From positions 86,174,300 through 86,238,299 of the forward strand of contig CM041777.1 in assembly GCA_023374045.1 (NCBI GenBank): 64,000 bases of DNA, given 5' to 3'. Numbering within the stretch: the stretch's first letter is position 1; every line of letters begins with the position of its first letter. This stretch comes from Limonium bicolor (Eukaryota; Streptophyta; Magnoliopsida; Caryophyllales; Plumbaginaceae). Position numbers and translations under genes: made by a program. The notes beneath the pieces were generated by a model, which had not been told where the DNA came from, did not search any database, and was given only the letters and a program-made list of their open reading frames with translations. Shown piece by piece: positions 6,116 through 61,069 of the stretch.

Positions 6116-6133
6116 TCCCCGGCAACGGCGCCA
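6116..6133 (-). promoter_or_regulatory. Primer-binding site for tRNA-Asp
   Basis: The minus strand reads TGGCGCCGTTGCCGGGGA, complementary to the 3' end of plant tRNA-Asp(GUC) including CCA. It is six bases from the LTR end. A tRNA-Asp primer is typical of the Athila lineage. Only the 3' end of the tRNA is matched, so this is not a tRNA gene. Confidence 0.85.
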
Positions 6134-6139
6134 AAAACT

Positions 6140-7721: not shown

Positions 7722-9873
7722 ACTTTGCCCATTGTTTCTCCAATCCTCCTACATGTAATCCCATATGTTTAAACACTACCTAGGCCCTCCAAATTGCCTT
7801 AGTTCATCGACCAAGTTCCTTACTAAATCTATCAATCAACTTACACAATTTCCTCATTTCCTTTCCACACTTACAACAGTTTTTCATCCTTCAATGCTAC
7901 AGATTGTTGTTCCAACTTCTTACCCTCAATACTCCTACTACCAATACCATTATTAGCATCCCAAATGTCTCATCTTACCATGCCAATTCATTTCCAAGCA
8001 ATTGCACCATTTATACCCAAGTCCAACCTTCATTTTACCAAGTCTTATACTCTAGTTCTTCCTAGTTTCTCCAAGGCAATCCAATACCTCTTGCTACAGC
8101 TTTTATATCCTTTCATTCTCTTACCACAACTACTACTCCATAGTTATTAAACATCTGTACCAACTCCTATACACACCTTGGTTTCCCCATTCACCAAGTC
8201 ATCCACACATGTACATATTCCTACCAAATTTTGCCATAGTTCATCTACTTCTCTTACTTATCCACACATCTCCTTTCTCATTAATTCATCCCTATTCTAG
8301 CCAAACCACAAGGGTTCTACCAGCACACATACAAATATAAATTCCTCAATACATCAATACTCCATCAAACATCAATACCAATACTCAAACACAATATACT
8401 TGGCTCTAAGGCCTACAATTTACTTACTAGTTCCCAAATACTCAAAACTTCATAAACTTCAATACTAATACAATAGTTTAGGTTCTTTTATTTGTTTACC
8501 TATTCCCATTACTCTAACGCAATAGAATTTAACATTAGGAATGAGCTCTTACCTTGAGCTTATTTTTCCTTCATTTCTTTTCCCATTCTCCTTCTGCTCT
8601 CTTCTTTGCACCAAAAATCGGTCATATGGGGAATGGAGTTTCCAAACTCCATTCCCATCACCCAAAGCACACAAAACAATTGTAATTAAACTACTAACCC
8701 TTAAATTAACACTAATTCATTGAAGTGTTAAAAATACAAATTCTAGGGTTTACCTTTGGAGTGTTTTAGGAGGGGTTTTAGCCCTTGGTTCAAGAAGGTG
8801 AATCCACCACCATTGCAAGGTTGATATTTTGCTCAAAGGAGAGAGAGAAAATGGAGTGTTACAAAGAGGTAAAAATCGATTATGAGCAAGGATGGAGAAA
8901 TATGAGTTCTTTCATGGAGATTTTTACCTTAATGGAGAGAGGGGACTCCAAGCTACACATTGATGCTATTTTCTTCACCAATGGGGTATACCCACGAAAA
9001 TAAACTTCCTCATTTTTGGATTTTGAAAAGAGAGAAGTGTAGAGGAAGATGAGGGGATTACAAATATGTAATTATTTTTACATTTGGAGCTCAAATGAAG
9101 GTAGATCATGGGAGAGAAGTGAGAGTTGCCATTGTTGTTGTTGGGGGAGCTCAAAATCGCAGCCAGAGGGGAGGAGGAAGAGAGAGAGCACGGTGGGGAA
9201 GAAAGAAATGGGAGAGAGAAGAGAGAAATGAGAGGGGAGAGAGAATGTGAGTGCTTTTTACTTTCCCACCTTTTTGCTTTTGCTCTCTTATTTAATTAAC
9301 TAGTTACATGTGTGTGTGAGGGATTATTTAACTAGTAAAAACCGGCCCCATATAGTATACTAGTTGGAGCGTTTTTCGTCTTTTACAGAAAACGCTCGTT
9401 ATTTTACCCGGTTTCGGTACTATTCACTAATCGGGCCCGTTTTCTGGAATTTTCTCGTTTAATTATTTTTGTTGGTTATTAAGCTTCCATAAATGCTTAA
9501 TAATTATTATTTAATGATTCACGATTTTTACGGGTCCGTTTGACCACTTAAAGTCATGTTTTCGGGTTTTCTCGAAAAATGTGCGCTACAGCTCTATTAG
9601 CGTTTTAATACATTATTTAGATCCGTTTTCTTCGGGAGTTGTTCCCATTTATTATTTAGGTATTATTAATCCTTTAGAATCCATATAATATGTTAACCGA
9701 GGTCACATACCTCCTATGGTTATTTAACGCTTATTTAGCGTTTTTCGTTTTTTATGCGTTTCTTTATTTCTTTTGGATTTATTTTCCCTCACCAATACTA
9801 CTTAAGCAATATTAGGGTCTTAAATAAGGATTAGAATACTCTTAATCACTATATTTAAGTTCGGGGTATTTCA
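7722..9873 (-). repeat. Possible partial chromovirus-type LTR
   Basis: There is no convincing gene. Read on the minus strand, the right end begins TGAAATACCCCGAAC at 9873. It continues through AT-rich sequence with an inverted repeat GAGCGTTTT/AAAACGCTC (9368-9399), then an abrupt change at ~9290 to CT-rich leader-like sequence (9040-9260). This is the style of long LTRs of Tekay/Del-like chromoviruses with a promoter and pyrimidine-rich leader. The other end would have been cut by the insertion ending at 7721. Several small ORFs (for example 7765-7956, 8541-8723 and 8785-9003) have no recognisable features. No second LTR is in the window, so this remains a guess. Confidence 0.3.
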
Positions 9874-10187
9874 AACGCACTGCACATAACTCACTTAACT
9901 AATTTGTTCAAAAACGCCGGACGAAACAACCACACTGCCAAACAGCAATTTTTAAAATAGCCACATATACACCAGCACAAAACAACCAGCAAAACACTGC
10001 AAAACAACCAAACCAAAACAACCGCAAAAAAGCCATACCAAACAGAGCCTTAATGTTCCGAGCATTCGTCAATTAACGCCTCCATCTTCGATCTATATAT
10101 GTCGAAGGCAGACTTGACTTCTTATGGATCCTGATTCCAGCTATTCGAAATTTCTCCTAAACTCTTTGGTTTCAGTTAGCGTGGTAG
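9874..10187. other. Unassigned AC-rich intergenic stretch
   Basis: The stretch contains runs of AACCA/CAAAACA-type sequence ending near 10048 in ACCAAACAGAGCC. This resembles the common plant MITE terminus GGCTCTGTTTGGT read on the other strand, but I find no partner terminus. Confidence 0.25.
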
Positions 10188-32637: not shown

Positions 32638-33680
32638 TGTTGGGTAAAAACCTAACGGCAAGAATACCGGTCGATTATAGCAAGTTCTCCTAGAAGTGTC
32701 CCTCCAGGTTATCGAATCCAGGAGGCAGCGTTTTAGTTTGATTAATATTTAAGATCAAAACAAAGTAAAATAACTCAAGTAACAGGGGGTTTTGTTTGTT
32801 TGAATTACTAAGTACTGAAGCAAACTGTAAATAAGAACAAGGGTAATAAATGCAAGAGCAACAGTGAGCAAAACAATGATGTTTTTGAATTAATGAGAAG
32901 GAAAATTCCGGTTTACTAATCCTCCAATTTCTTCGGTTCCTTTCTCAGTGTGTTTACCGATATCTAGATTAAAATCCTAGATCAGAATTATTCCACGTTC
33001 GGTCTCCCGCTCGGTGGAATCTAATTAACAGCTAATAAATTTTAACTCTCGTTACAAATTTATTAATTGCTAACAGCTTTAAGAATAATCCAGTTTAATG
33101 ATCAGTTAATATCCTAGAGGAATTACCATCTCTAAATTAACCGGTGTTGTTCCTGTTGTCTATTATCTACCGCAGTTCTCACTTATAAGCATATAAACAG
33201 GTAAAATCCAGTAATTGGCCAAATCACAAGATTTATAATAATAAATAAGGGACAACACTTTAATCTGTTAAAATGGTAAATCACAAAGATAATGGAACCT
33301 CAGAATTTGGATTACATAGTAAACCGAAATTTATAGAAATTACTCAGCCATGGAAATGGAATTACTGCAACAATATGTAAATAACATTAAAGAAAAAAAG
33401 AAGAAGAAACTCTGTTTTAAGGCTCTTTGATGGAGTCTCTGTGCACAACCAGCAGTTCCTCCGCTCAATCTCCAGGTAATGGTGTAGTCCCCAGCTGCTT
33501 GTATGTTCCAGATTTCTATGGATGTATGTGGTGTTTTATGGAAATGGTGATATGGGTAGTACGTGAGAAATGAGATGGAAATGGATGGAGGAGTGTAATG
33601 GATGAGGAATGGAATGGTGTAAGAGAGGGAGGAGATATCCGATGGATTTTTTGTGTGTTTGAATGAGAAGGAGAGAGCTC

Positions 33681-33690
33681 TATTTATAGA
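33681..33690 (-). promoter_or_regulatory. TATA box in LTR 1
   Basis: TCTATAAATA on the minus strand lies downstream of the U3 hairpins, giving a predicted start near 33650-33655. The same box is at 45073-45080 and 56566-56573 in the other LTRs. Confidence 0.6.
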
Positions 33691-33962
33691 GCCTCTGTAT
33701 TGATACGTAACAACAGTATATGGTGGTGGAGATGAGGCTGGAATTAGTGAGTGGAATGGTGGGTGGTGTTGCTGGTTTTAGGGAAATAATTTGATTTAGT
33801 GGGATTGTGGATAATTGAAAGCAGCACGGAAGGGACAAAATAACAGTGCGGAAGAAATACTGGAAAGGATGATTAGTGCATGGGGCGGTGGTCTGTTCGA
33901 AAGAGAAATTTATTCTCTTTTCTTCCTTTCGCGAGCTTACAGATGTCCGCTTCTAGCCATAT

Positions 33963-34290
33963 GGTCCGGGACTTGAGTTCTGTATGAAGTCCTGGACCGT
34001 ATCATTGAAACAGGTCGAGGGTTTGCTCTGATTTGTGGTCCGGGACTTAGGGTTTGTATAAAGTCCCGGACCATGGTGTTAAAACAGGTCGAAAGTCCTT
34101 TCCTTGTGTGGTCCGGGACTTAAGTTGTGTATAAAGTCCCGGACCATATTTGAATTCCAGTCGAGATTGATGCTTCATAGTGGTCTGGGACTTAAGTTAT
34201 GCAAAAAGTCCCGGACCATGTCTGTATTCAGGTCGAGATTTTGAGTCACAATGTGGTCCGGGACTTAGCTCCAGAATCAAGTCCCGGACC
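33963..34290 (-). repeat. Five-unit 73-bp hairpin repeat in LTR 1 U3
   Basis: Hairpins at 33963-33998, 34037-34072, 34110-34145, 34182-34217 and 34255-34290 are each 36 nt. Each has 12-bp arms GGTCCGGGACTT and AAGTCCCGGACC around a ~12-nt loop. The ~37-nt spacers each contain a TCGAGA/TCGAAA-type core and are themselves related. The units are not identical, so the array is not recent. It lies upstream of the TATA box in the sense direction, where enhancers are expected. Confidence 0.9.
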
Positions 34291-34543
34291 ATGCTTGAAT
34301 TTAATTCGAGAGTTTGTTGTCTTTGACTCAAATCAGTTTGTTGATTTTCCATGTGTTCCACTAGTGATAGGAATGTGTTTCCTTTGAGATTAAAAATCTG
34401 AAAAAGCACACAAAAACCATAAAAGAAGACAATTGCAAACAGAAACATAAAAGTGCTCATAAGACAGGAATTTAGCAGTCAATGGTAACAGATTAGGCAT
34501 CAAAAGACCCTTTAGAAATAGATAAATTCCTGACTTATCAACA

Positions 34544-34577
34544 TCCCCACACTTAACCTTTGCTTGTCCTCAAGCAA
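34544..34577 (-). promoter_or_regulatory. Polypurine tract plus AGGA-loop hairpin, unit 1
   Basis: In the sense direction TTGCTTG-AGGA-CAAGCAA (34560-34577) is followed by TAAGTGTGGGGA (34544-34555) and then the LTR start TGTTGATAAG. The tract is the expected plus-strand primer. Equivalent positions are 45937-45970 and 57429-57462. Confidence 0.75.
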
Positions 34578-35910
34578 TTACTGCAATCAAAAAGTTCCAA
34601 AATTTCCAAAAGCGGGGATTTATCAGGTCAGGAAAATGTTCAAGGAAATCTAATGCTGAAAAAAACAGTCATAAGAGACAGCGATTAGTACTGCAAGTTT
34701 TCTTAAACAGTGAAGATAGAGTGTTTGACAAATGCATGAGACTATCATCATAACTATTTAATCCAAACTTTACTCAGGGCTCTACTTTCCATTTGCTTTC
34801 CACAATTCATTGGACGACAAGGGGCAAGAAGTAATGTCATATTCCACATTACCTTTCATTACCACATACTCATAATCAAGGAAGAATTTGCAATAAACTG
34901 TTTAGCATGAAAGAACTTTCCTTCCAATTTTTCTGAGTAAGCATTATTCATTTCATCCCCTCAGACTTTTTCTCCCCATCCTTGTAGCGGTGTTGGGCCT
35001 TCTATCCCAGATCAGATGATCTTAGGTAGATAAGTGATGAGGCACTCCAAGGGCTTAATTACCGAATGGGAGAGGTCTGTTCCGGTTCAGAGTAGATTAG
35101 AGGAGTACCTTGCCTTTGTCCTTTCCTTCCATTCATTCCAAAACTTTCCAAAAGCCCCAAGTTAGTTCAAACAAAATAGTCACACAATGGTCTCACCTTT
35201 TATTAAAGGAAATAGATGTAAATTTTAACCAAAACCGACAATCCAAGCAGTATAACCAAAGTTCTTATGACCGAAATTTTAGATTAAATCTCAAAAATGT
35301 TTGCTACTTGTATGTTATTCCTGACTGATGCATCTGACCACAGCTGAAAACCAAGTATGTCGAATTAAAAATTTTTGTGGAGGGTCATCAAAGGTTAGTG
35401 AAGGGAAAATAAGTATAGTCAGGAGCCACAGAAAACAAATAATTAGATGTGCAACCCCCTTTACTACTTCCCCACACTTTGAGAATAGCAATGTCCTCAT
35501 TGCTACTAGAATGTGATTATAGTGCAAAAGAAAGAATAGGACTCCCCTGAATAATCGATGAAGATGATGTCCCCACACTTATGATAAAGGGGGGTTGTGG
35601 AAATTTTGGCAGAGTCTCCTTTGTTTTCTTTCGATATTGCACACAAAATGTTGGCAGTCCTGTTTGAATATCACAAAGCAGCAGACAAGATATTTGCAAG
35701 GAAAGCAGTGAACATAACCACGAAGTGTAAGTGGCAGGAGTACCAAAATAACAACAACAATCCAAAAAGAAAACGAAGGTCACCAGAAGTTGCAACCTAG
35801 CAAGCTAAAAGACATTAAAACATCACAAACGTCAACGTCAGCTGAAAATCAAAAAGTGCAATAAAAGATAGATGAACTGATGTAGCAGGGGGCATAAACC
35901 AAATCATAGA
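34578..35910 (-). other. 3' UTR of unit 1
   Basis: No credible gene. It contains a second polypurine-like tract with hairpin at 35469-35505 (stem TAGCAATG/CATTGCTA, loop AGGA in sense) and a third polypurine-like tract at 35570-35581 without an obvious hairpin. Small ORFs on both strands recur in all three units only because the units are near-identical. Confidence 0.6.
35469..35505 (-). promoter_or_regulatory. Second polypurine-like tract with AGGA-loop hairpin, unit 1
   Basis: The sense stem-loop TAGCAATG-AGGA-CATTGCTA (arms 35498-35505 and 35486-35493) is followed by CTCAAAGTGTGGGGAAG. The stem sequence differs from the primary site at 34560-34577, yet pairing is perfect over 8 bp and the loop is unchanged. 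Confidence 0.65.
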
Positions 35911-37217
35911 CTACCGCCGGGGCATGCGCCAAGACTCTAACTGGGAGAAGCGCTCATCATAAGCCTGGAATCGGGCCTCCTGCTGAGCCTGGTACTCAGC
36001 AAACTGAGCAGCCTGCTGAGCCTGATACTCAGAAAACTGAGCAGCCTGTCGAGCCTCGTACTCAGTATGACGGGTCTCTAAAGATGTGAGCCTCTCACCA
36101 TACCCATCCAGACGACTTGCAAAGCCGTCAAAGTATGCTGTAGCGGTCCCCCTCCAGTCTCTGAACTCGTGTAGCAACTGCTCATAACCCGGGGCCGGAT
36201 CAGCAGGCATCGGGAAGTCCGGGATCTCACCACCAGCAGCATCAGCAGCGGCCTCAACCTCATCAACAGCCTCAGCCTCATCAGCAGCCTCAGCAACTCG
36301 GGGGGCGCGTGCAGCGCGTCGGCGCTTCACCCACTACCCGTCGTTCTTCTCCCACTGGAAGAATCTCATCATGGTCATATCGAGAGTAGATCGAGGGTAC
36401 TGAGGCTCCTCATCAGACACATCTACCCCTTTGGCAGCCATAACGAGTATATGAGGTGTGGAAATGGGAGAGAGGCGGAATGATCGGTCTGAACCACCCG
36501 GCGCATAGAAGTAAAGATGATGCGATGCATACTAGGAGGAACCCCTGCAGCGGCATAGGCGTCGTCCAGGATGTAACGCATAAGCCAGCAGTCATATTCA
36601 TTCAAATCGGCACACTCCCGGGGGCGAACATTAGACATCAGTATCCCTAAAAGCAGACGCTCTCTAGGGGTGGGTAGCTTATCCCCTGTGACAACCTGCT
36701 TGTCCCGGTTATTCCGACGCTGCCGATTTTGAACTTCGGGATCAAGGACAATCAAGTTAATATAGTGTGCCTTAGCTTGTCGAGTCAATAATTGCATATT
36801 AGCCCTATTCTCCGCAGTCGGCATCCGAACAGCTATGGGCAAGTTCATACAACGCCTAATGCTAAGAGCATCCACAGAGATATTTTTGCCTTTGACCACA
36901 GAAGTAATAGTATCCCCGTCATCACTCACCGTTGCATTAGCATAGAACAACTTTACCAGTCTCGGGTAGAATTTCCCCCCTCGAGTCAACAGAGGTACCC
37001 ATCCACGTGCATTAAACAGTGCTTCTAAATCAAATTCAGCAATTAAGGTCGGACACACTGACCTTTCAGGTAGTATTTTTCTCTCGCGAGCATGGTACCA
37101 ATTCCTAGCCGCTTCATTGATGAAGTCGGAATCGACTGTCTCCCGGACCCGGAGTGGAGGAGCGTCTGATGAAGAAGAAGCCCCGGCAGTGTTGTTTCGA
37201 GCGCGCTTTGGTGCCAT
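35911..37217 (-). pseudogene. Third ORF of unit 1 (Transposase_32-like domain plus coiled coil)
   Basis: Starts MAPKRARNN at 37217, with a basic, NLS-like head. Residues ~45-200 resemble the 'putative plant transposon protein' domain (Transposase_32) found in Athila-type elements, with ARGWVPLLTRGGKFYPRLVK and later RPRECADLNEYDCWLM. A Glu/Ala/Asp-rich stretch follows, then a C-terminal coiled coil with repeated AEYQAQQ units; total length is ~434 residues. In this unit a one-base deletion near 36434 ends the first frame early (264 residues), and an amber codon near 36337 precedes the second part (36330-35911). No transmembrane segment is seen, so it does not look like an envelope protein. 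Its role is unknown. Confidence 0.75.
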
Positions 37218-37932
37218 TGGAATTTTGGATCAGGGATTGTTTGGGTTGGTCGTGTGAGTGCGCGGGGTGGAAATTTGGAGTGGGAATTGGTGTGGCGGCA
37301 CTGGGTTGAGGTCGGTGGTTGTGTTTTGAACTGGGGCGGGGGCGAGTTTGGTGTGGAGATTGGACCGAGAGCAAGGGAGTGGGTGGGTGCGTACTGGTGA
37401 GGCGATGGTGAAAGTCAGGTGGTGAAGGGTGGTGAATGTGGAGCGACTTCGAGAGCGAGGGAGTGGAGTGGTGGTTGGTGAAGTAGGTTGTTGGGCGCGA
37501 GGGTGCGGTGCGGGTGTTTGGAGAAGTCGACTGGGGTGTGGGGCTGGTGAGGGGCGACAAAGGAATGGAGAGGTGGTGGTGTGTTGGGCTACGGCGGGCG
37601 AAGGCGACGGAGGTGGTGGTTCGGGGTGCGACGCGACAGGGCGGAGGGTTGGGTGGTGTTGCGAGGGTGATGGCGAGTGGCGACGAGGTGGTGGTGGTGA
37701 GTTGGGCTACTGGTGGAGTGTGGTGCGAAGAACAGAGGGAGAAGGGAGGTGGTTGTGGTCGCGGTGCTGGTGTGGTGGTTGGTGTCGATGGAGGTGGGCG
37801 CGATTGGACGAGGGAGGGCGAGGCGAGAGCGAGAGAGAGGGAGTTAGGGATTTGAGTGAGGCTGAAGGTAGAAGGGAGGCGGGAGAATGAAGACGACCGT
37901 GTTTCAGTTTTTTTTTTTTCGTTAGCTGTGTT
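37218..37932 (-). other. CT-rich leader between hairpin array and third ORF, unit 1
   Basis: In the sense direction the order is an A-tract (37907-37919), a pyrimidine-rich block with CTCTCTCTCGCTCTCGCC-like sequence, then a CCACC-rich stretch up to the ATG at 37217. Pro/Ser/Thr-rich minus-strand frames and Gly/Trp/Arg-rich plus-strand frames here are composition artefacts. The layout resembles a promoter-proximal leader, but no clear TATA box is visible. Confidence 0.45.
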
Positions 37933-38184
37933 GGTCCGGGACCTAGGATATGCATGAGGTCCCGGACCGCTATGCTAAAATAGGTCGAGAGTGCCTCTTG
38001 TTTTGGGTCCGGGACTTAAGATTTGTATAAAGTCCCGGACCATTATCTCCAATTCTCGGAAATGTTCTCACTCGTGGGTCCGGGACTTAAGATTTGGATC
38101 AAGTCCCGGACCACCCCTATTTTCCGTTCGAGAGTTGCCATGGCCTCTGGTCCGGGACTTAAGCCTTGTATCATGTCCCGGACC
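37933..38184 (-). repeat. Four-unit 73-bp hairpin repeat between pol and third ORF, unit 1
   Basis: Hairpins at 37933-37968, 38006-38041, 38077-38112 and 38149-38184 are each 36 nt and of the same family as the LTR U3 array, with the same TCGAGAG-type spacer. In the first one the arm reads GGTCCGGGACCT and its partner AGGTCCCGGACC, a compensated change relative to the other units. Equivalent arrays are at 49331-49582 and 60817-61069. Confidence 0.9.
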
Positions 38185-38414: not shown

Positions 38415-41400
38415 TCAGTATGGAGGATCATGCACCGTGATCACCGAATGGACTTCGGCGATGTCACCACTGAGATAGTGTTTCAACTGAGATCCGTTTA
38501 CTTTGAAAGTCTCCCCTTCCGCATTGATTAAACCTATGGCTCCATAAGGCGAGACACTTGTGATTGTGAACGGTCCAGACCAGCGAGATTTCAACTTTCC
38601 CGGGAATAATTTCAGACGGGAGTTGAATAGAAGCACCTTATCTCCAACGTTAAACTCACGTTTTACCAAAAGCTTGTCATGCCACCTTTTCGTCTTTTCC
38701 TTATAGATTTTGGCATTTTCATATGCTTCCTCTCGAAATTCCTCCAAATTGCACAACTGCATCTTGCGCTTCTCACCAGCCTTTTGTAAGTCAAAATTTA
38801 ATGCTTTGATGGCCCAAAAGGACTTATGCTCCAATTCTACAGGCAAGTGACATGCCTTGCCATATACCAATTTGTACGGAGACATACCTAAGGGGGTTTT
38901 GAAGGCAGTGCGATATGCCCACAAAGCATCATCTAGCTTGAGTGACCAATCGCGTCTAGAAGAGGTGACAGATTTTTGAAGGATCCACTTGATTTCTCTA
39001 TTTGTAATCTCGGCTTGCCCGTTTGTCTGTGGATGATATGGTAGGGAGACCTTGTGTCGTACGCCATATTTCTGTAGAAGGGCTTCAAATTGTTTGTTGC
39101 AGAAATGGGTACCTCCATCACTAATGATTGCTCGCGGAACACCAAAACGAGTGAATATATTCCGCTTCAAAAATTTGAGCACTACTTTTGCATCATTAGT
39201 TGGTGCTGCTATTGCTTCAGCCCATTTTGTAACATAGTCTACTCCCACCAAGATGTAGAGGTTACCTTGTGATGATGGGAACGGCCCCATGAAATCAATG
39301 CCCCAAAGGTCGAATGGTTCAACTTCCAATATAGAATTCAAGGGCATCTCATGACGTCTAGATAGGTTCCCTTGCCTTTGGCACTGGTCACATGTAGACA
39401 CAAACTGATAGCAATCTTTGTTCAAGGTCTTCCAAAAGAAACCTGCTTCCAAAACTTTTGCGGCTGTTCGGGCATGACCGAAATGACCTCCTGCTTCTCT
39501 TGAGTGACAATGATCAAGGATATCTCTTATTTCAGGATCAGGAACGCATCTGCGAATCATCCCATCCGCGCAAACCTTGAAGAGAAATGGGTCGTCCCAA
39601 AGGTAATGCTTGACTGTGGAGAAGAACTTCTTCTGCTGATATGACAATTCTGGAGGAACAATGCCCTTGGCTAGGTAGTTTGCAATATCAGCATACCAAG
39701 GGTCTGTGGGACAACTGATCGTGTAGACAAACTCATCAGGAAAATACTCGTTAATCGGCTTGCCATCATCTGGAATTTCCATACGGGATAAGTGATCTGC
39801 CACTCCATTCTGTGCTCCAGGTTTGTCCCTAATCTCAATGTCAAACTCCTGCAAAAGTAAAATCCATCTAATTAAACGAGGTTTAGCATCAACTTTTCCA
39901 AAGAGATACCTGAGAGCGGAATGGTCGGTATGCACAATGACTTTGCTGCCAATAATGTATGGTCGAAATTTGTCACATGCAAAGACAATTGCCAGCAACT
40001 CCTTCTCCGTTGTTGTGTAGTTCTTTTGTGCCTCATTCATAGTCTTACTAGCATAGTAGACTATCCTCAACACCTTGTCATGTCTCTGACCCAAAGCTGC
40101 TCCCAATGCGTAATCGCTGGCATCACACATTATCTCAAAAGGTAATGACCAATCAGGAGCAACAATAATAGGTGCAGAAACCAAATTAGCCTTGAGCAAA
40201 TTAAAAGCATCTAAGCACTCTTTTGTAAATTCAAATTTTACATCTTTAATTAACAGATCACAAAGAGGCTTAGAGATCCTAGAGAAATCCTTAACAAAAC
40301 GCCTATAAAAACCTGCATGACCGAGAAAACTTCGGACATCCTTTACCGACGATGGTGGTGGTAGTTGCTCTATTACCTCAATCTTTGATTTGTCTACCTC
40401 GATCCCTTTCTTAGAAATCTTATGTCCGAGCACGATGCCTTCCTGCACCATAAAGTGGCACTTCTCCCAATTGAGCACCAAGTTAGTCTCCTTGCACCTA
40501 GCTAAGATTAAATCCAAGTCTCTCAAGCATGAATCAAAAGTAGGTCCAAAGACAGAAAAATCATCCATAAAGATTTCGATGCACTTTTCAATAAAATCAG
40601 CAAAGATAGCAGTCATGCATCTTTGAAATGTAGCTGGTGCATTACACAAACCAAAGGGCATGCGTCGATAAGCATAAGTACCATATGGACATGTAAAAGT
40701 AGTTTTCTCTTGGTCTTCCTTAGCAATTGGAATTTGAAAGTAACCGGAGTAACCATCTAAGAAACAGTAATAGTCTTGTCCTGCAAGCCTCTCCAACATC
40801 TGATCAATGAAAGGAAGGGGGAAATGGTCTTTCCTAGTGGCGGCATTTAATTTCCTATAATCAATGCAAACTCTATGCCCGGTAATAGTACGCTGAGGAA
40901 TTAATTCACCTTTATCATTAGGTACCACAGTTAAACCTCCTTTCTTAGGTACGACCTGTGTGGGACTTACCCATTCGCTGTCAGAAATAGGGTAAATGAT
41001 ACCTGCATCCAAGAGCTTGATGACTTCCTTTTTAACCACCTCTTTCATGTGCGGGTTCAGTCTTCGTTGAGGCTGTCTTGCTGGTTTGTCATTCTCCTCA
41101 AGGTAAATGCGGTGAGTGCAGAATGTAGGGGCAATGCCTTTGATATCAGCAATGGACCACCCTAATGCCTCTTTGTTCCTCTTCAGAACCTGCAACAAGG
41201 CTTCCTCCTGTTCATTGGTTAAACTGTTAGAGATAATGACAGGCAAATCAGATGGAGGAACTAAGAAAGCATATTTAAGGTGACTAGGAAGAGGGTTAAG
41301 TTCAAGGGAAGGTGGTGAGTCCACAGAAGGAGCTAGTGTCTTTGGAACTCGGTCCAGCGGTTCCTCTTCGATTTTGTAGTTCTTCCTATATGGCCTACCA

Positions 41401-42095
41401 GCAGCAAGCTGAAATGCTGCAGCAGAGACTTCCGAATCATCATGAACTGTTTCTATGGACTCTACCAAGCACTTCTCCAATGCATCCAGCTCCGTGGGGC
41501 TGTAAGAATAGTCCTGCATCAAGGTATCAATACAATCTAAACTAAAACAAGCATGAACATCAGAAGGGTGGGTAGTGGCTTTGGTCATATCAAATACAAG
41601 CTGCTCATCATGTAGCCGAAGTATAATCTTCCCTCCTTCAACATCAATGAGGGTCCTTGCTGTACGCATGAATGGTCGACCTAAGATAAGTGGTACCACC
41701 TTGTCTTCCTCCATGTCTAAGATAACAAAATCAGCAGGGAAAGCAAAAGTGCCAACCGAAACAATTAAATCCCTTACCACTCCTTTAGGTAGGATGATGG
41801 ACCTATCGGCTAATTGTAGAGTAATTCGGGTAGGTTCACATTCTCCTAGACCAAGCTTCAGATATATTGAATAGGGCATTAAATTAATACTCGCACCTAA
41901 GTCACATAAACCCTTACCACATTGCACATTACCTATCGCGCAAGGTATGACCGGGGTACCTGGGTCATCAAGCTTAGGTGGAAGCTTTTGTGAAAGGACG
42001 GCTGATACGTTCTCGGTAAGCTGCACAGTATCTTTCTCCACTAAGGACCGTCTATTTGACAGGATGTCCTTCATGAACTTCGCATATATTGGCAT
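38415..42095 (-). CDS. Pol polyprotein of unit 1: protease, RT, RNase H, integrase (intact)
   Basis: 1226 codons are open in one frame, in the Ty3/gypsy order. Protease has [11 protein letters not shown] at ~residue 65. RT has [22 protein letters not shown] and the catalytic FMDDFSVFG at ~505. RNase H has [14 protein letters not shown] and TTEKELLA. Integrase has the HHCC finger ([20 protein letters not shown] to CDQCQRQG), then [20 protein letters not shown] and [16 protein letters not shown] as DDE blocks. No chromodomain follows. These features and the tRNA-Asp primer place it in the Athila lineage. The ATG at 42093-42095 is internal; in an unbroken copy the frame continues from gag, so translation alone from here is doubtful. 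All catalytic residues I can check are present. Confidence 0.92.
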
Positions 42096-43877
42096 CTGCT
42101 TTAACGCATCAGAAAAGGGAATGTTAATGGTTAGTTTCTTAAAGATACTTAGGAACTTACCAAACTGCTCATCCAGGTCTCTTTTTCAACCGGTTTGGAA
42201 AAGGCACCGATGCTATATCAACTGTGCGGCGTGGAGGTGTGGAAGTCTTAGAAGTCTTACTAATAGCCACCTCATTTTCAACCGGTTCCTCCTGAGAGCC
42301 TTTCGGTGTGGTTTCTTCATTTTCCCCAACATTAGGAAGAGGAGCTTCAATTTCAGGAATCACCGGCTCAAGCTGTGTACCACTTCTCAATGTGATTGCC
42401 TTGGCATGCTCTCTCGGGTTCTGTTCTGACTGACTGGGTAAAGAACCCAAAGGGCGCTGAGCTAACTGCTGTGATATCTGAGATATTTGAGTTTCGATGT
42501 TCCTATTGAATGTCCTTTGATCATTGTTGAAGGTCCTCTGCTCCTGATTGAAAGCTTCTAGCTCATTAAATTTTGGTATTGACAGTGATGAAATCATTCA
42601 TTCTGGCCAGAACTTCATCCATGCTAGAGGATGCACCAGCACCTGCATTCTGCACTTGCTGATTCTGCAGTGGCTGCTTTTGATAAGAGGAATTATATTG
42701 CTGCTGAGGTCTCTGATTATAATTGCTGTTACCGCCAGCTTGGTAACGACTCTGTTGCTGATATCCTTGATTGTTTTGGTTGTTGTAGAAGGTCCCTTGC
42801 CTGTTTCCCAGATAATTTACCTCTTCATTTTGCTGAGAAGTGCACTGGCACATGTTGGGACTTCTACCACAATACTCACACTGTGGGAAGGAATCGGTCA
42901 CAACAGCGGCGCTTGACTGAGGTTTCATCATAGCACACATCTTTCAAACTGCTTTGACATTGCTTCCATTTTGGCGGCCAGAAAAGTATTTGAATCTACT
43001 TCATAGACTCCAGCGGTTTTCTTCGGTGCTGCTTCTCCTGTTCTCGCACCTCCCCACTGATTGGATGCATTGGCGATGGTATCCAATAGTTCCTTGATTC
43101 TAGCTATTGGTAGCTCCATGAGGCTTCCTCCTGCACAAGTGTCTACCAACAAACGACTTGAATGATCCAAATCTTTATAAAAGGACTGTAAAATTACCTC
43201 CTCTCCCAAGCCATGGTGTGGTACTTTGCGCACAATGCCTTTGAAACGCTCCCAAGCCTCAGATAATGTTCACCAGTGAACGGTTTAAAGTTGGTGATCT
43301 CTCCTCTCATCATCAGCATCCGAGAAGGAGGGAAATATTTTGCCAAAAATGCATTTGCTAACTCTGTCCAGGTGGTGATACTGTTGGGTGTCAAAGAGTT
43401 TAGCCAATCTGCAGCTCTGTCCCTCAGGGAGAATGGGAAGAGAGTCAGTCTAGCCACCTCCTGTGAAGCTGATGTAGAACAAGCTCCCACCAATCTTATG
43501 AAAGTGGTGAGGTGGACATTGGGATCTTCGGTGATTCCGCTGAACTGAGGTGCATTCATGACCATAGTAACATAATGCGTTTTGAACTGCCAATGCTCCC
43601 CTGCTGGTAACGCAGGAATTACTATTGGTGAGACAAGCCCTTCAACGCTTGGGCGGGTGTAATCCCTCATGTGCCTCTCCGGATTCTCCATATTGGTTCT
43701 TGAGGAGTTGTTCAGAATTTCTTTTTCAACAATACCTTCTGTTGGTGAATCTTTTGGAAGTACCTCCTGAACAATCGGAGGCTCCAGCTCTAATCTTTTT
43801 CGAATTCTTCTTGTTACTCTTTCTATTTCTGGTTCAATTTCGAATTCAGGGTCTCCTACAGAACGAGTTTTAACCAT
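42096..43877 (-). pseudogene. Gag of unit 1, four frameshifts
   Basis: The start MVKTRSVGD at 43877 lies 128 bases from the primer site. The retrotransposon-gag core (LTLFPFSLRDRAADWLNSL, FLAKYFPPSR) sits in frame 43877-43194. The rest is split among 43233-42928, 42940-42566 and 42597-42169. Compared with unit 2, one- or two-base deletions near 43270, 42943, 42573 and 42180 account for all the breaks. A Cys-rich CEYCGRSPNMCQC segment stands where a zinc knuckle is expected but has no His. A Gln/Asn-rich stretch follows. These breaks prevent gag-pol fusion synthesis in this unit. Confidence 0.85.
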
Positions 43878-44004: not shown

Positions 44005-44022
44005 TCCCCGGCAACGGCGCCA
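44005..44022 (-). promoter_or_regulatory. Primer-binding site for tRNA-Asp, unit 1
   Basis: TGGCGCCGTTGCCGGGGA on the minus strand lies six bases from the LTR end, identical to that at 6116-6133 and 55497-55514. Confidence 0.9.
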
Positions 44023-44028
44023 TTAACT

Positions 44029-45936
44029 TGTTGGGTAAAAACCTAACGGCAAGAATACCGGTCGATTATAGCAAGTTTTCCTAGAAGTGTCCCTCCAGGT
44101 TATCGAATCCAGGGGAGGCAGCGTTTTAGTTTGATTAATATTTAAGATCAAAACAAAGTAAAATAACTCAAGTAACAGGGGGTTTTGTTTGTTTGAATTA
44201 CTAAGTACTGAAGCAAACTGTAAATAAGAACAAGGGTAATAAATGCAAGAGCAACAGTGAGCAAAACAATGATGTTTTTGAATTAATGAGAAGGAAAATT
44301 CCGGTTTACTAATCCTCCAATTTCTTCGGTTCCTTTCTCAGTGTGTTTACCGATATCTAGATTAAAATCCTAGATCAGAATTATTCCACGTTCGGTCTCC
44401 CGCTCGGTGGAATCTAATTAACAGCTAATAAATTTTAACTCTCGTTACAAATTTATTAATTGCTAACAGCTTTAAGAATAATCCAGTTTAATGATCAGTT
44501 AATATCCTAGAGGAATTACCATCTCTAAATTAACCGGTGCTGTTCCTGTTGTCTATTATCTACCGCAGTTCTCACTTATAAGCAGATAAACAGGTAAAAT
44601 CCAGTAATTGGCCAAATCACAAGATTTATAATAATAAATAAGGGACAACACTTTAATCTGTTAAAATGGTAAATCACAAAGATAATGGAACCTCAGAATT
44701 TGGATTACATAGTAAACCGAAATTTATAGAAATTACTCAGCCATGGAAATGGAATTACTGCAACAATATGTAAATAACATTAAAGAAGAAAAAGAAGAAG
44801 AAACTCTGTTTTAAGGCTCTTTGATGGAGTCTCTGTGCACAACCAGCAGTTCCTCCGCTCAATCTCCAGGTAATGGTGTAGTCCCCAGCTGCTTGTATGT
44901 TCCAGATTTCTATGGATGTATGTGGTGTTTTATGGAAATGGTGATATGGGTAGTACGTGAGAAATGAGATGGAAATGGATGGAGGAGTGTAATGGATGGA
45001 ATGGAATGGTGTAAGAGAGGGAGGAGATATCCGATGGATTTTTTGTGTGTTTGAATGAGAAGGAGAGAGCTCTATTTATAGAGCCTCTGTATTGATACGT
45101 AACAACAGTATATGGTGGTGGAGATGAGGCTGGAATTAGTGAGTGGAATGGTGGGTGGTGTTGCTGGTTTTAGGGAAATAATTTGATTTAGTGGGATTGT
45201 GGATAATTGAAAGCAGCACGGAAGGGACAAAATAACAGTGCGGAAGAAATACTGGAAAGGATGATTAGTGCATGGGGCGGTGGTCTGTTCGAAAGAGAAT
45301 TTTATTCTCTTTTCTTCCTTTCGCGAGCTTACAGATGTCCGCTTCTAGCCATATGGTCCGGGACTTGAGTTCTGTATGAAGTCCTGGACCGTATCATTGA
45401 AACAGGTCGAGGGTTTGCTCTGATTTGTGGTCCGGGACTTAGGGTTTGTATAAAGTCCCGGACCATGGTGTTAAAACAGGTCGAAAGTCCTTTCCTTGTG
45501 TGGTCCGGGACTTAAGTTGTGTATAAAGTCCCGGACCATATTTGAATTCCAGTCGAGATTGATGTTTCATAGTGGTCCGGGACTTAAGTTATGCAAAAAG
45601 TCCCGGACCATGTCTGTATTCAGGTCGAGATTTTGAGTCACAATGTGGTCCGGGACTTAGCTCCAGAATCAAGTCCTGGACCATGCTTGAATTTAATTCG
45701 AGAGTTTGTTGTCTTTGACTCAAATCAGTTTGTTGATTTTCCATGTGTTCCACTAGTGATAGGAATGTGTTTCCTTTGAGATTAAAAATCTGAAAAAGCA
45801 CACAAAAACCATAAAAGAAGACAATTGCAAACAAGAAACATAAAAGTGCTCATAAGACAGGAATTTAGCAGTCAATGGTAACAGATTAGGCATCAAAAGA
45901 CCCTTTAGAAATAGATAAATTCCTGACTTATCAACA
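44029..45936 (-). repeat. LTR 2 (5' LTR of unit 1 and 3' LTR of unit 2)
   Basis: The 1908-bp LTR shares the same TG...CA ends. The hairpin array is at 45355-45682 and the TATA box at 45073-45080. The primer site lies to its left and the polypurine tract to its right, showing that it is shared by two units. Confidence 0.92.
45355..45682 (-). repeat. Five-unit 73-bp hairpin repeat in LTR 2
   Basis: Same arrangement as in LTR 1. The fourth unit reads GGTCCGGG where LTR 1 has GGTCTGGG, and the fifth has one arm changed to AAGTCCTGG. Confidence 0.9.
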
Positions 45937-47303: not shown

Positions 47304-48611
47304 CTACCGCCGGGGCATGCGCCAAGACTCTAACTGGGAGAAGCGCTCATCATAAGCCTGGAATCGGGCCTCCTGCTGAGCCTGGTACTCAGCAAACTGA
47401 GCAGCCTGCTGAGCCTGATACTCAGAAAACTGAGCAGCCTGTCGAGCCTCGTACTCAGTATGACGGGTCTCTAAAGATGTGAGCCTCTCACCATACCCAT
47501 CCAGACGACTTGCAAAGCCGTCAAAGTATGCTGTAGCGGTCCCCCTCTAGTCTCTGAACTCGTGTAGCAACTGCTCATAACCCGGGGCCGGATCAGCAGG
47601 CATCGGGAAGTCCGGGATCTCACCACCAGCAGCATCAGCAGCGGCCTCAACCTCATCAACAGCCTCAGCCTCATCAGCAGCCTCAGCAACTCGGGGGGCG
47701 CGTGCAGCGCGTCGGCGCTTCACCCACTGCCCGTCGTTCTTCTCCCACTGGAAGAATCTCATCATGGTCATATCGAGAGTAGATCGAGGGTACTGAGGCT
47801 CCTCATCAGACACATCTACCCCTTTGGCAGCCAGTAACGAGTATATGAGGTGTGGAAATGGGAGAGAGGCGGAATGATCGGTCTGAACCACCCGGCGCAT
47901 AGAAGTAAAGATGATGCGATGCATACTAGGAGGAACCCCTGCAGCGGCATAGGCGTCGTCCAGGATGTAACGCATAAGCCAGCAGTCATATTCATTCAAA
48001 TCGGCACACTCCCGGGGGCGAACATTAGACATCAGTATCCCTAAAAGCAGACGCTCTCTAGGGGTGGGTAGCTTATCCCCTGTGACAACCTGCTTGTCCC
48101 GGTTATTCCGACGCTGCCGATTTTGAACTTCGGGATCAAGGACAATCAAGTTAATATAGTGTGCCTTAGCTTGTCGAGTCAATAATTGCATATTAGCCCT
48201 ATTCTCCGCAGTCGGCATCCGAACAGCTATGGGCAAGTTCATACAACGCCTAATGCTAAGAGCATCCACAGAGATATTTTTGCCTTTGACCACAGAAGTA
48301 ATAGTATCCCCGTCATCACTCACCGTTGCATTAGCATAGAACAACTTTACCAGTCTCGGGTAGAATTTCCCCCCTCGAGTCAACAGAGGTACCCATCCAC
48401 GTGCATTAAACAGTGCTTCTAAATCAAATTCAGCAATTAAGGTCGGACACACTGACCTTTCAGGTAGTATTTTTCTCTCGCGAGCATGGTACCAATTCCT
48501 AGCCGCTTCATTGATGAAGTCGGAATCGACTGTCTCCCGGACCCGGAGTGGAGGAGCGTCTGATGAAGAAGAAGCCCCGGCAGTGTTGTTTCGAGCGCGC
48601 TTTGGTGCCAT
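47304..48611 (-). pseudogene. Third ORF of unit 2, late nonsense codon
   Basis: This copy reads through the site where units 1 and 3 are frameshifted, giving a 354-residue frame from 48611 to 47547. It ends at an amber codon (TAG where the others have TGG) just before the coiled-coil part. That part continues in phase to ~47304 with repeated AEYQAQQ units. The domain content is as for unit 1. The protein would keep the Transposase_32-like domain but lose the coiled coil. Confidence 0.8.
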
Positions 48612-49330: not shown

Positions 49331-49582
49331 GGTCCGGGACCTAGGATATGCATGAGGTCCTGGACCGCTATGCTAAAATAGGTCGAGAGTGCCTCTTGTT
49401 TTGGGTCCGGGACTTAAGATTTGTATAAAGTCCCGGACCATTATCTCCAATTCTCGGAAATGTTCTCACTCGTGGGTCCGGGACTTAAGATTTGGATCAA
49501 GTCCCGGACCACCCCTATTTTCCGTTCGAGAGTTGCCATGGCCTCTGGTCCGGGACTTAAGCCTTGTATCATGTCCCGGACC
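49331..49582 (-). repeat. Four-unit 73-bp hairpin repeat, unit 2 internal
   Basis: Same positions relative to pol and the third ORF as 37933-38184. In the first hairpin one arm reads AGGTCCTGGACC, a G-U-tolerated change. Confidence 0.9.
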
Positions 49583-55496: not shown

Positions 55497-55514
55497 TCCC
55501 CGGCAACGGCGCCA
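55497..55514 (-). promoter_or_regulatory. Primer-binding site for tRNA-Asp, unit 2
   Basis: Identical to 44005-44022 and six bases from LTR 3. Confidence 0.9.
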
Positions 55515-55520
55515 TTAACT

Positions 55521-57428
55521 TGTTGGGTAAAAACCTAACGGCAAGAATACCGGTCGATTATAGCAAGTTTTCCTAGAAGTGTCCCTCCAGGTTATCGAAT
55601 CCAGGGGAGGCAGCGTTTTAGTTTGATTAATATTTAAGATCAAAACAAAGTAAAATAACTCAAGTAACAGGGGGTTTTGTTTGTTTGAATTACTAAGTAC
55701 TGAAGCAAACTGTAAATAAGAACAAGGGTAATAAATGCAAGAGCAACAGTGAGCAAAACAATGATGTTTTTGAATTAATGAGAAGGAAAATTCCGGTTTA
55801 CTAATCCTCCAATTTCTTCGGTTCCTTTCTCAGTGTGTTTACCGATATCTAGATTAAAATCCTAGATCAGAATTATTCCACGTTCGGTCTCCCGCTCGGT
55901 GGAATCTAATTAACAGCTAATAAATTTTAACTCTCGTTACAAATTTATTAATTGCTAACAGCTTTAAGAAATCCAGTTTAATGATCAGTTAATATCCTAG
56001 AGGAATTACCATCTCTAAATTAACCGGTGCTGTTCCTGTTGTCTATTATCTACCGCAGTTCTCACTTATAAGCAGATAAACAGGTAAAATCCAGTAATTG
56101 GCCAAATCACAAGATTTATAATAATAAATAAGGGACAACACTTTAATCTGTTAAAATGGTAAATCACAAAGATAATGGAACCTCAGAATTTGGATTACAT
56201 AGTAAACCGAAATTTATAGAAATTACTCAGCCATGGAAATGGAATTACTGCAACAATATGTAAATAACATTAAAGAAGAAAAAGAAGAAGAAACTCTGTT
56301 TTAAGGCTCTTTGATGGAGTCTCTGTGCACAACCAGCAGTTCCTCCGCTCAATCTCCAGGTAATGGTGTAGTCCCCAGCTGCTTGTATGTTCCAGATTTC
56401 TATGGATGTATGTGGTGTTTTATGGAAATGGTGATATGGGTAGTACGTGAGAAATGAGATGGAAATGGATGGAGGAGTGTAATGGATGAGGAATGGAATG
56501 GTGTAAGAGAGGGAGGAGATATCCGATGGATTTTTTTGTGTGTTTGAATGAGAAGGAGAGAGCTCTATTTATAGAGCCTCTGTATTGATACGTAACAACA
56601 GTATATGGTGGTGGAGATGAGGCTGGAATTAGTGAGTGGAATGGTGGGTGGTGTTGCTGGTTTTAGGGAAATAATTTGATTTAGTGGGATTGTGGATAAT
56701 TGAAAGCAGCACGGAAGGGACAAAATAACAGTGCGGAAGAAATACTGGAAAGGATGATTAGTGCATGGGGCGGTGGTCTGTTCGAAAGAGAATTTTATTC
56801 TCTTTTCTTCCTTTCGCGAGCTTACAGATGTCCGCTTCTAGCCATATGGTCCGGGACTTGAGTTCTGTATGAAGTCCTGGACCGTATCATTGAAACAGGT
56901 CGAGGGTTTGCTCTGATTTGTGGTCCGGACTTAGGGTTTGTATAAAGTCCCGGACCATGGTGTTAAAACAGGTCGAAAGTCCTTTCCTTGTGTGGTCCGG
57001 GACTTAAGTTGTGTATAAAGTCCCGGACCATATTTGAATTCCAGTCGAGATTGATGCTTCATAGTGGTCCGGGACTTAAGTTATGCAAAAAGTCCCGGAC
57101 CATGTCTGTATTCAGGTCGAGATTTTGAGTCACAATGTGGTCCGGGACTTAGCTCCAGAATCAAGTCCTGGACCATGCTTGAATTTAATTCGAGAGTTTG
57201 TTGTCTTTGACTCAAATCAGTTTGTTGATTTTCCATGTGTTCCACTAGTGATAGGAATGTGTTTCCTTTGAGATTAAAAATCTGAAAAAGCACAAAAAAC
57301 CATAAAAGAAGACAATTGCAAACAAGAAACATAAAAGTGCTCATAAGACAAGGAATTTAGCAGTCAATGGTAACAGATTAGGCATCAAAAGACCCTTTAG
57401 AAATAGATAAATTCCTGACTTATCAACA
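55521..57428 (-). repeat. LTR 3 (5' LTR of unit 2 and 3' LTR of unit 3)
   Basis: 1908 bp. TATA box at 56566-56573 and hairpin array at 56848-57174. It is flanked by a primer site on the left and a polypurine tract on the right. Confidence 0.92.
56848..57174 (-). repeat. Five-unit 73-bp hairpin repeat in LTR 3
   Basis: Same array as in LTRs 1 and 2. The second unit lacks one G in its arm, giving a bulge. Confidence 0.9.
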
Positions 57429-58797: not shown

Positions 58798-60101
58798 CTA
58801 CCGCCGGGGCATGCGCCAAGACTCTAACTGGGAGAAGCGCTCATCATAAGCCTGGAATCGGGCCTCCTGCTGAGCCTGGTACTCAGCAAACTGAGCAGCC
58901 TGCTGAGCCTGATACTCAGAAAACTGAGCAGCCTGTCGAGCCTCGTACTCAGTATGACGGGTCTCTAAAGATGTGAGCCTCTCACCATACCCATCCAGAC
59001 GACTTGCAAAGCCGTCAAAGTATGCTGTAGCGGTCCCCCTCCAGTCTCTGAACTCGTGTAGCAACTGCTCATAACCCGGGGCCGGATCAGCAGGCATCGG
59101 GAAGTCCGGGATCTCACCACCAGCAGCATCAGCAGCGGCCTCAACCTCATCAACAGCCTCAGCCTCATCAGCAGCCTCAGCAACTCGGGGGGCGCGTGCA
59201 GCGCGTCGGCGCTTCACCCACCCGTCGTTCTTCTCCCACTGGAAGAATCTCATCATGGTCATATCGAGAGTAGATCGAGGGTACTGAGGCTCCTCATCAG
59301 ACACATCTACCCCTTTGGCAGCCATAACGAGTATATGAGGTGTGGAAATGGGAGAGAGGCGGAATGATCGGTCTGAACCACCCGGCGCATAGAAGTAAAG
59401 ATGATGCGATGCATACTAGGAGGAACCCCTGCAGCGGCATAGGCGTCGTCCAGGATGTAACGCATAAGCCAGCAGTCATATTCATTCAAATCGGCACACT
59501 CCCGGGGGCGAACATTAGACATCAGTATCCCTAAAAGCAGACGCTCTCTAGGGGTGGGTAGCTTATCCCCTGTGACAACCTGCTTGTCCCGGTTATTCCG
59601 ACGCTGCCGATTTTGAACTTCGGGATCAAGGACAATCAAGTTAATATAGTGTGCCTTAGCTTGTCGAGTCAATAATTGCATATTAGCCCTATTCTCCGCA
59701 GTCGGCATCCGAACAGCTATGGGCAAGTTCATACAACGCCTAATGCTAAGAGCATCCACAGAGATATTTTTGCCTTTGACCACAGAAGTAATAGTATCCC
59801 CGTCATCACTCACCGTTGCATTAGCATAGAACAACTTTACCAGTCTCGGGTAGAATTTCCCCCCTCGAGTCAACAGAGGTACCCATCCACGTGCATTAAA
59901 CAGTGCTTCTAAATCAAATTCAGCAATTAAGGTCGGACACACTGACCTTTCAGGTAGTATTTTTCTCTCGCGAGCATGGTACCAATTCCTAGCCGCTTCA
60001 TTGATGAAGTCGGAATCGACTGTCTCCCGGACCCGGAGTGGAGGAGCGTCTGATGAAGAAGAAGCCCCGGCAGTGTTGTTTCGAGCGCGCTTTGGTGCCA
60101 T
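58798..60101 (-). pseudogene. Third ORF of unit 3, single frameshift
   Basis: Two frames, 60101-59307 (264 residues) and 59325-58798 (175 residues), overlap at the same one-base deletion as in unit 1 (near 59322). Unlike unit 1, the second part has no amber codon; a three-base deletion removes the Gln codon at that place. The coiled-coil end with repeated AEYQAQQ units is complete. Sharing the deletion with unit 1 but not unit 2 shows that the array order does not follow simple descent. Confidence 0.8.
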
Positions 60102-60816: not shown

Positions 60817-61069
60817 GGTCCGGGACCTAGGATATGCATGAGGTCCCGGACCGCTATGCTAAAATAGGTCGAGAGTGCCTCTTGTTTTGGGTCCGGGACT
60901 TAAGATTTGTATAAAGTCCCGGACCATTATCTCCAATTCTCGGAAATGTTCTCACTCGTGGGTCCGGGACTTAAGATTTGGATCAAGTCCCGGACCACCC
61001 CCTATTTTCCGTTCGAGAGTTGCCATGGCCTCTGGTCCGGGACTTAAGTCTTGTATCATGTCCCGGACC
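60817..61069 (-). repeat. Four-unit 73-bp hairpin repeat, unit 3 internal
   Basis: Same as 37933-38184. The first hairpin keeps the compensated ACCT/AGGT arms. Confidence 0.9.

Follow-up and report, generated by a model that had tools for sequence, protein, structure and literature searches.

Arrays of paired dyad-symmetric boxes in the LTRs and upstream of the third open reading frame of Athila-like elements of Limonium bicolor: candidate protein-binding sites

The subject of this analysis is a set of hairpin-forming repeats carried by Athila-like Ty3/gypsy retroelements in a 64,000-nucleotide stretch of Limonium bicolor DNA (contig CM041777.1, positions 86,174,300 to 86,238,299, forward strand), referred to here as the window. 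In the right half of the window, near-identical units of such an element follow one another head to tail on the minus strand, one every ~11.4 kb; the units are 98.5–99.5% identical over their longest matching pieces and 96% identical in one 0.8-kb piece. Three units with common long terminal repeats (LTRs) occupy 32638–64000 in the order LTR-internal-LTR-internal-LTR-internal and continue past the right window edge. In the sense direction, a unit comprises the LTR, a primer-binding site, gag, pol with reverse transcriptase (RT), RNase H and integrase, and a third open reading frame (ORF3). The pol domains are ordered RVT_1, RT_RNaseH, Integrase_H2C2 and rve, the Ty3/gypsy order expected of the Athila lineage, and the exact Asp-tRNA-type primer-binding site at 44022 and 55514 and the location of ORF3 on the same strand as pol also agree with this lineage. 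We take the primer-binding site TGGCGCCGTTGCCGGGGA to be of the Athila/tRNA-Asp type. Sireviruses (Ty1/copia) are defined by an integrase upstream of RT; in the window element, the integrase lies downstream of it. ORF3 matches PF20167, which Pfam describes as a 'putative plant transposon protein'. The features of the three units, all on the minus strand, are as follows.

32638..34543, minus strand: LTR1, the 3' LTR of the leftmost unit, with TGTTG...CAACA ends
33681..33689, minus strand: TATA-like box CTATAAATA of LTR1, ~273 bp sense-downstream of the LTR1 array
33963..34290, minus strand: U3 array of LTR1, five hairpins (33963, 34037, 34110, 34182, 34255) of 36 bp each, 72–74 bp apart
36423..37217, minus strand: ORF3 copy 1, PF20167 Transposase_32, E 3.5e-16
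37933..38184, minus strand: internal array copy 1, four hairpins (37933, the ACCT/AGGT unit; 38006; 38077; 38149)
38415..42095, minus strand: pol copy 1, with RT, RNase H and integrase in Ty3/gypsy order and its stop at 38415
43194..43877, minus strand: gag fragment ORF, Retrotrans_gag
44005..44022, minus strand: primer-binding site TGGCGCCGTTGCCGGGGA by LTR2, exact match
44029..45936, minus strand: LTR2, with TGTTG...CAACA ends
45355..45682, minus strand: U3 array of LTR2, five hairpins
47547..48611, minus strand: ORF3 copy 2, 354 aa, PF20167, E 1.3e-17
49331..49582, minus strand: internal array copy 2, four hairpins
55497..55514, minus strand: primer-binding site adjoining LTR3, exact match
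55521..57428, minus strand: LTR3, with TGTTG...CAACA ends
56848..57174, minus strand: U3 array of LTR3, five hairpins, the second with a 1-bp deletion
59307..60101, minus strand: ORF3 copy 3, an open reading frame
60817..61069, minus strand: internal array copy 3, four hairpins

A preliminary description of this DNA had reported 36-nt hairpins with 12-bp arms at a 71–74-bp period, five in every LTR (in U3, upstream of the TATA box) and four more before ORF3. Our recount agrees: there are 27 hairpins, five in each of three LTRs and four in each of three pol–ORF3 intervals, in each, two mirror-image 12-bp arms enclose a loop of 12 nt, and one hairpin, the second in LTR3 (about 56922), has lost 1 bp from its left arm. 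In all three LTRs, the array lies in U3 upstream of the TATA-like CTATAAATA (at 33689, 45081 and 56574), which follows ~273 bp downstream in the sense direction. The internal array lies ~230 bp past the pol stop (38415) and ~716 bp before the ORF3 ATG (37217). With up to 2 mismatches, the arm GGTCCGGGACTT has 56 matches in the window, whereas 100 shuffled versions averaged 2.8 and gave at most 7; chance origin is ruled out by this count and by reversed-pattern controls, which gave 0 genome-wide. Besides the unit with the deletion, 16 hairpins form twelve Watson-Crick pairs, 7 contain one G-T and 3 contain one mismatch; the plus-strand G-T pairs are A-C on the sense strand of the element. Helical phasing of the units at 10.4 bp per turn, a period chosen among four, gives R 0.96 for LTR1 and 0.79 for internal array 1, which is only suggestive.

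The conservation of the unit was analyzed using a curated table of 23 unit types with at most 6 arm changes each (26 types before that cut). None of the 23 types is altered at arm positions 2, 3, 4 or 8, and a single type is altered at each of positions 1, 5 and 7; position 6 is kept in 20 types, and the three exceptions carry the change expected from CpG decay. Positions 9–12 vary, mostly on one side only, so the statement in the preliminary description that the arms are kept holds mainly for positions 1–8. Each arm reads GGTCC-G-GGAC followed by T or C, an 11-bp near-dyad, (T)GGTCC-G-GGAC(T/C). Five dyad pairs are possible. Left arms form four of them in 20 types and all five in 3; right arms form three in 5 types, four in 14 and all five in 4. 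The dyad becomes complete when position 11 is C. The ACCT/AGGT pair, previously noted as a compensated change, is present in the first unit of every internal array (copy 2 has one further G-T), but it is explained as a completed 11-bp dyad in each arm, since this unit has the full dyad in both. The arms of one unit are mirror images placed 24 bp apart from start to start, and of the 27,914 exact-arm hairpins with loops of 8–16 nt, 26,911 (96.4%) have a loop of exactly 12 nt. The T that precedes the hairpin and the A that follows it are often retained, and a second short box (CCGAGAG-like) accompanies most units. Among the 9 units of one element, loops and spacers show an identity of 0.51–0.70 (shuffled mean 0.49), with the arms almost unchanged.

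The pairing of the two arms was evaluated across the 2.92-Gb assembly containing the window. Perfect hairpins (11-bp arms, free 12-nt loop) number 26,911 genome-wide, with 0 in the backward-read control, and together with the mutually exclusive counted variants they give 66,612 units, which is a lower bound. At position 11, 26,911 units are unchanged, 26,241 are changed on one side and 1,682 on both, where independence predicts ~6,400 two-sided changes. Since a one-sided change at position 11 still leaves a G-U wobble on one strand, the test was extended to position 9; the change there is a transversion, and its one-sided form breaks the pair on both strands with no wobble. Genome-wide, position 9 is changed on one side in 10,783 units and on both sides in 995. 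Among the matches listed, 49 of 50 position-9 doubles share one loop type or its 1-base variants and are therefore probably derived from one lineage, and 100 one-sided units comprise about 39 loops in about 18 clusters. By number, the position-9 doubles favour pairing; by number of origins among the matches listed, they do not.

The table of 23 types was consistent with these counts. Of its 31 changed cells, 4 are compensated (shuffled mean 2.4; 16% of shuffles reach 4), and the others comprise 13 broken on both strands, 7 sense-strand G-U and 7 A-C. Compensatory changes thus do not exceed one-sided changes, as they would in a conserved RNA structure. Based on the genome-wide counts at positions 11 and 9 and on this table, arm-arm pairing is not mainly what is kept, and an RNA stem under selection is ruled out as the main account. 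The preliminary description had read the kept pairing as a possible sign of RNA structure; this reading is not supported, given the large surplus of one-sided over compensated changes at both positions counted across the genome and the lack of a clear compensated excess in the table.

RNA hairpins with a function of their own (packaging, export, ORF3 translation or processing), kept by selection on pairing, are consequently given little credence here. The sense strand of the internal array does fold far better than its shuffles (z -7.4; 0 of 200 shuffles as good), 23 of the 27 window hairpins pair at all 12 positions when plus-strand G-T is counted (16 without it), the genomic RNA would hold 9 hairpins (internal array and 3' U3), and the position-9 doubles exceed independence by count. 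However, one-sided changes dominate at both genome-wide positions with no clear compensated excess, the loop hardly varies in length, every arm forms a near-dyad on its own, the plus-strand G-T pairs become A-C in the sense RNA, and the orientation of the unit relative to coding differs between lineages.

This difference was found in a survey of other carriers, which covered 20 stretches of 10 kb (given L numbers) around known hairpins on one contig. Arrays are present in 18 of the 20 stretches, and none were found in L017 and L022 as cut. L024 groups with the window LTR (82% over about 340 bp), the L023 LTR is weakly similar to the others (72–73% over 252 bp), and the remaining carriers form one set of related LTRs. 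Between the two LTRs of one pair in this set, L028:3933 and L029:3206, lie gag, protease, RT, RNase H and integrase; this element shows a chromodomain match below Pfam's cut-off and an RT 44% identical to that of the window, and we take it to be a chromovirus of the Tekay type. An initiator-Met-type primer-binding site was detected, among 16 loci scanned, exactly in L021, L029, L031 and L034 and with one mismatch in L032 and L035, the setting in L035 being unlike the others. The orientation of the unit relative to coding in the chromovirus LTRs is opposite to that in the window element: the CCGAGAG-like box lies sense-downstream of the hairpin in the former and sense-upstream in the latter. 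L023, an Athila relative with an RT 83% identical to that of the window, carries an LTR array with weak boxes oriented as in the chromovirus. Its array is 563 bp away from the TATA-like word, and that of L024 268 bp.

The two lineages were compared using 13 units of the window lineage (L024 included) and 40 units of the chromovirus set. The arms agree, the loops show 0.43 identity vs 0.24 when shuffled, the box region 0.40 vs 0.27, and the first half of the spacer 0.344 vs 0.270, with the second half near chance (0.288 vs 0.265). The earlier remark that loops drift is half right, as some similarity of the loops persists even between lineages. The comparison is consistent with a shared module of old origin whose motifs are under selection, and exchange and convergence are both compatible with it. 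It also bears on the view that the repeats have no function, having spread with successful elements and looking conserved since the copies are young. Tandem repeats are indeed common in plant LTR elements (PMC11963269), and the window copies look young, as their longest pieces are 98.5–99.5% identical. Nevertheless, this view is very improbable: outside the arms, the units of one element are near the shuffled level without the arms having diverged, and across lineages the spacer is near chance in its second half and little above it in its first, in contrast to the agreement of the arms.

In other Athila-type LTR stretches (window 6134–9500, L029 7830–10000 and three of L022), no palindrome arrays of any sequence were found; the scan gave 4 (window), 0 (L029), and 0, 0 and 2 (L022) single inverted repeats with differing words. 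The window stretch belongs to the left half, where a further Athila-type primer-binding site is present at 6133 (stretch 6116–9500, minus strand) and the LTR stretch beside it is without a hairpin array.

Further observations were made on the carriers themselves. The array-carrying chromovirus contains, between gag and protease, an AlkB-type 2OG-Fe(II) oxygenase domain (PF13532, E 2.3e-32 and 1.3e-8), which in this copy is divided between two frames (L028:9258–9999 and 8381–9148, minus strand; L029:112–1355, minus strand), and this chromovirus apparently sits within the protease-region ORF of an Athila-like element that resumes on the far side. Among the plants screened in one report, such a domain is given for two Phalaenopsis species only (PMC9289625). 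In L026–L027, array-bearing LTRs recur at C1:1870334, 1878199, 1882139 and 1886083 in steps of about 3.93 kb, which suggests a short non-autonomous element in tandem.

The second site of the array lies upstream of ORF3, which has at least 145 genome matches at 75–100% identity (145 scored of 8,956 first-look candidates). In the listed part of C1 there are three other scored copies, two of which have a hairpin upstream.

C1:40685526, ORF3 match: hairpin 534 bp upstream
C1:5374653, ORF3 match: hairpin 620 bp upstream

For the third copy, C1:57884044, no upstream hairpin of the exact searched form was found among the matches listed. The ORF3 leader (window 37217–37933) is very G-rich on the plus strand, hence C-rich in sense, with CTCTCT runs, and presumably resembles a plant 5' untranslated region.

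ORF3 itself could supply the binding protein. The PF20167 protein might act as the element's own regulator in the manner of VANC, through binding to the arrays of the LTRs and of the putative ORF3 promoter. The arrays are found at both places that such a regulator would need, VANC provides a precedent (PMC5735166), and DNA binding has been suggested for the antisense-ORF proteins of Retand (PMC11963269). However, the array-bearing chromovirus has no ORF3 match and no ORF of at least 120 aa between pol and the array, and we consider self-regulation quite unlikely. The single-sequence structure prediction of ORF3 had a mean predicted local distance difference test (pLDDT) score of 39.6 and was not used, and the family tells little because 0 of 7,995 scored candidates in a large protein set matched at E 0.001.

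On balance, we regard the hairpins as probably being arrays of paired, dyad-symmetric sites for a host DNA-binding protein, serving as an enhancer in the LTR and perhaps also at an ORF3 promoter, rather than RNA stems. This DNA-site array is favoured because the two arms do not covary at either position counted genome-wide, the arms are conserved in diverged units, the spacing is rigid, the arrays lie upstream of the TATA box, and the module recurs in a second lineage. It is further supported by the hairpins upstream of two of the three other scored ORF3 copies on C1, and by Sireviruses, which have the same layout of palindromic boxes with a proposed regulatory role (PMC2829016). A dimeric host transcription factor would occupy two sites per unit and thus ten per LTR, and the occupied U3 array would enhance transcription from the LTR promoter downstream of it. 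Through the second array, upstream of ORF3, the same control may reach a distinct promoter of ORF3, or this array may serve as an enhancer inside the element; ORF3 perhaps has its own promoter. Of the functions proposed in the preliminary description, a protein-binding or enhancer array at two sites is thus retained as a likely role, and the RNA structure is not.

Several results weigh against this DNA-site array. The 995 position-9 doubles exceed the ~530 expected by independence (lower-bound denominator 54,834), although independence is only a rough yardstick because the copies share ancestry. Some doubles arose more than once, because 50 position-11 doubles span about 16 loops and 6 clusters, among the matches listed. 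At position 11, types with sense-strand G-U (5) are more frequent than those with A-C (2). TATAAA, TATATA and TATAAT are absent from the sense strand between pol and ORF3. In L023, no arm-like match better than 3 mismatches was found after pol (8500–9990); the internal array and the orientation are no rule for Athila, because L023 lacks this array and its boxes are chromovirus-oriented. Kinship of the L023 downstream ORF to ORF3 was not found on comparison. In the chromovirus LTRs, the distance from the array to the TATA-like word is variable (2 or 896 bp in L029; about 1.3 kb in L021, L031 and L032), and L034 has no TATA-like word downstream of its array. The GGNCC core of the arm is presumably like the TCP type, which serves as a lead only; the motif was matched to no factor.

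Decay of the arms in the window is partly C-to-T at CpG, as expected of methylated DNA. This would suit arrays that are the source or target of host small RNAs, with the hairpins feeding small interfering RNAs and LTR methylation; the arrays would then persist as needed promoters, with silencing as a side effect. Such a role has been described for palindrome clusters in maize Sirevirus LTRs (Bousios 2016, as told in PMC10760457). It would leave the conservation of the arms unexplained, however, and we consider it unlikely as the account of the arrays, although it is compatible with the DNA-site array and does not exclude it. If the DNA-site array is correct, RNA hairpins of the arrays would still form and may feed small RNAs, as the maize Sirevirus precedent suggests (PMC10760457).

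A broader interpretation is offered only tentatively. One module (dyad sites 24 bp apart, 73-bp period) may have been passed between, or independently built by, Athila and a chromovirus, two deep Ty3/gypsy lineages that carry it in opposite orientations in this plant genome; more than 66,000 units with the motif were counted in the assembly. Taken with the GTCCG that Sirevirus boxes also contain, this would possibly reflect convergence of unrelated plant retroelement lineages on one host transcription factor, with ORF3 having captured a copy of the array as its control region. If true, the arrays would provide a concrete, testable motif for a host factor driving two retroelement lineages of a 2.9-Gb plant genome, as well as a way to ask whether extra retroelement genes possess their own promoters. 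Hairpin-like repeats can be separated from RNA structure by genome-wide counts of one-sided vs two-sided changes.

Known systems share parts of this arrangement. VANDAL is a DNA transposon. Like the units here, VANDAL motifs are short, tandemly repeated and located outside the coding regions of a plant transposon; in their case the binding protein is known, which distinguishes them from the present arrays (PMC5735166). Retand and Grande carry an extra ORF between pol and the 3' LTR, as here (PMC11963269, PMC7264820), about half of Retand elements have tandem repeats in that interval (PMC11963269), and gene23 of Grande has its own promoter (PMC11963269, PMC7264820). Their extra ORF is antisense, whereas ORF3 of the window is in sense and its repeat is common to U3 (PMC11963269, PMC7264820).

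The closest system is that of the Sireviruses, whose palindromic boxes, in many copies, cluster within the LTR ahead of its TATA box and recur upstream of ENV; an internal ENV promoter has been discussed and a regulatory role of the boxes proposed (PMC2829016). In the window, boxes likewise lie in U3 upstream of the TATA-like box in 3 of 3 LTRs, and upstream of the putative ENV-like gene in 3 of 3 copies as well as in 2 of the 3 other scored C1 copies, with L023 being without them. The boxes of HOPIE, OPIE-2, PREM-2 and Usier contain GTCCG/CGGAC, as do the window arms, but they are single 10–20 bp palindromes; here, the unit spans 36 bp, its two 12-bp arms mirror each other across a loop fixed at 12 nt, and it recurs with a 73-bp period and a second box (PMC2829016). 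The palindromes that are small-RNA hotspots in maize Sireviruses are likewise hairpin-forming and located in the cis-regulatory part of the LTR (PMC10760457). The preliminary description knew of no described element with this arrangement; the layout is, however, already known in another superfamily, since Sireviruses carry it (PMC2829016). Among the open-licence papers listed in searches for such a layout, no title or abstract opening mentioned it in Ty3/gypsy. The layout itself is published for Sireviruses, and the new part is its presence in Ty3/gypsy, in two lineages.

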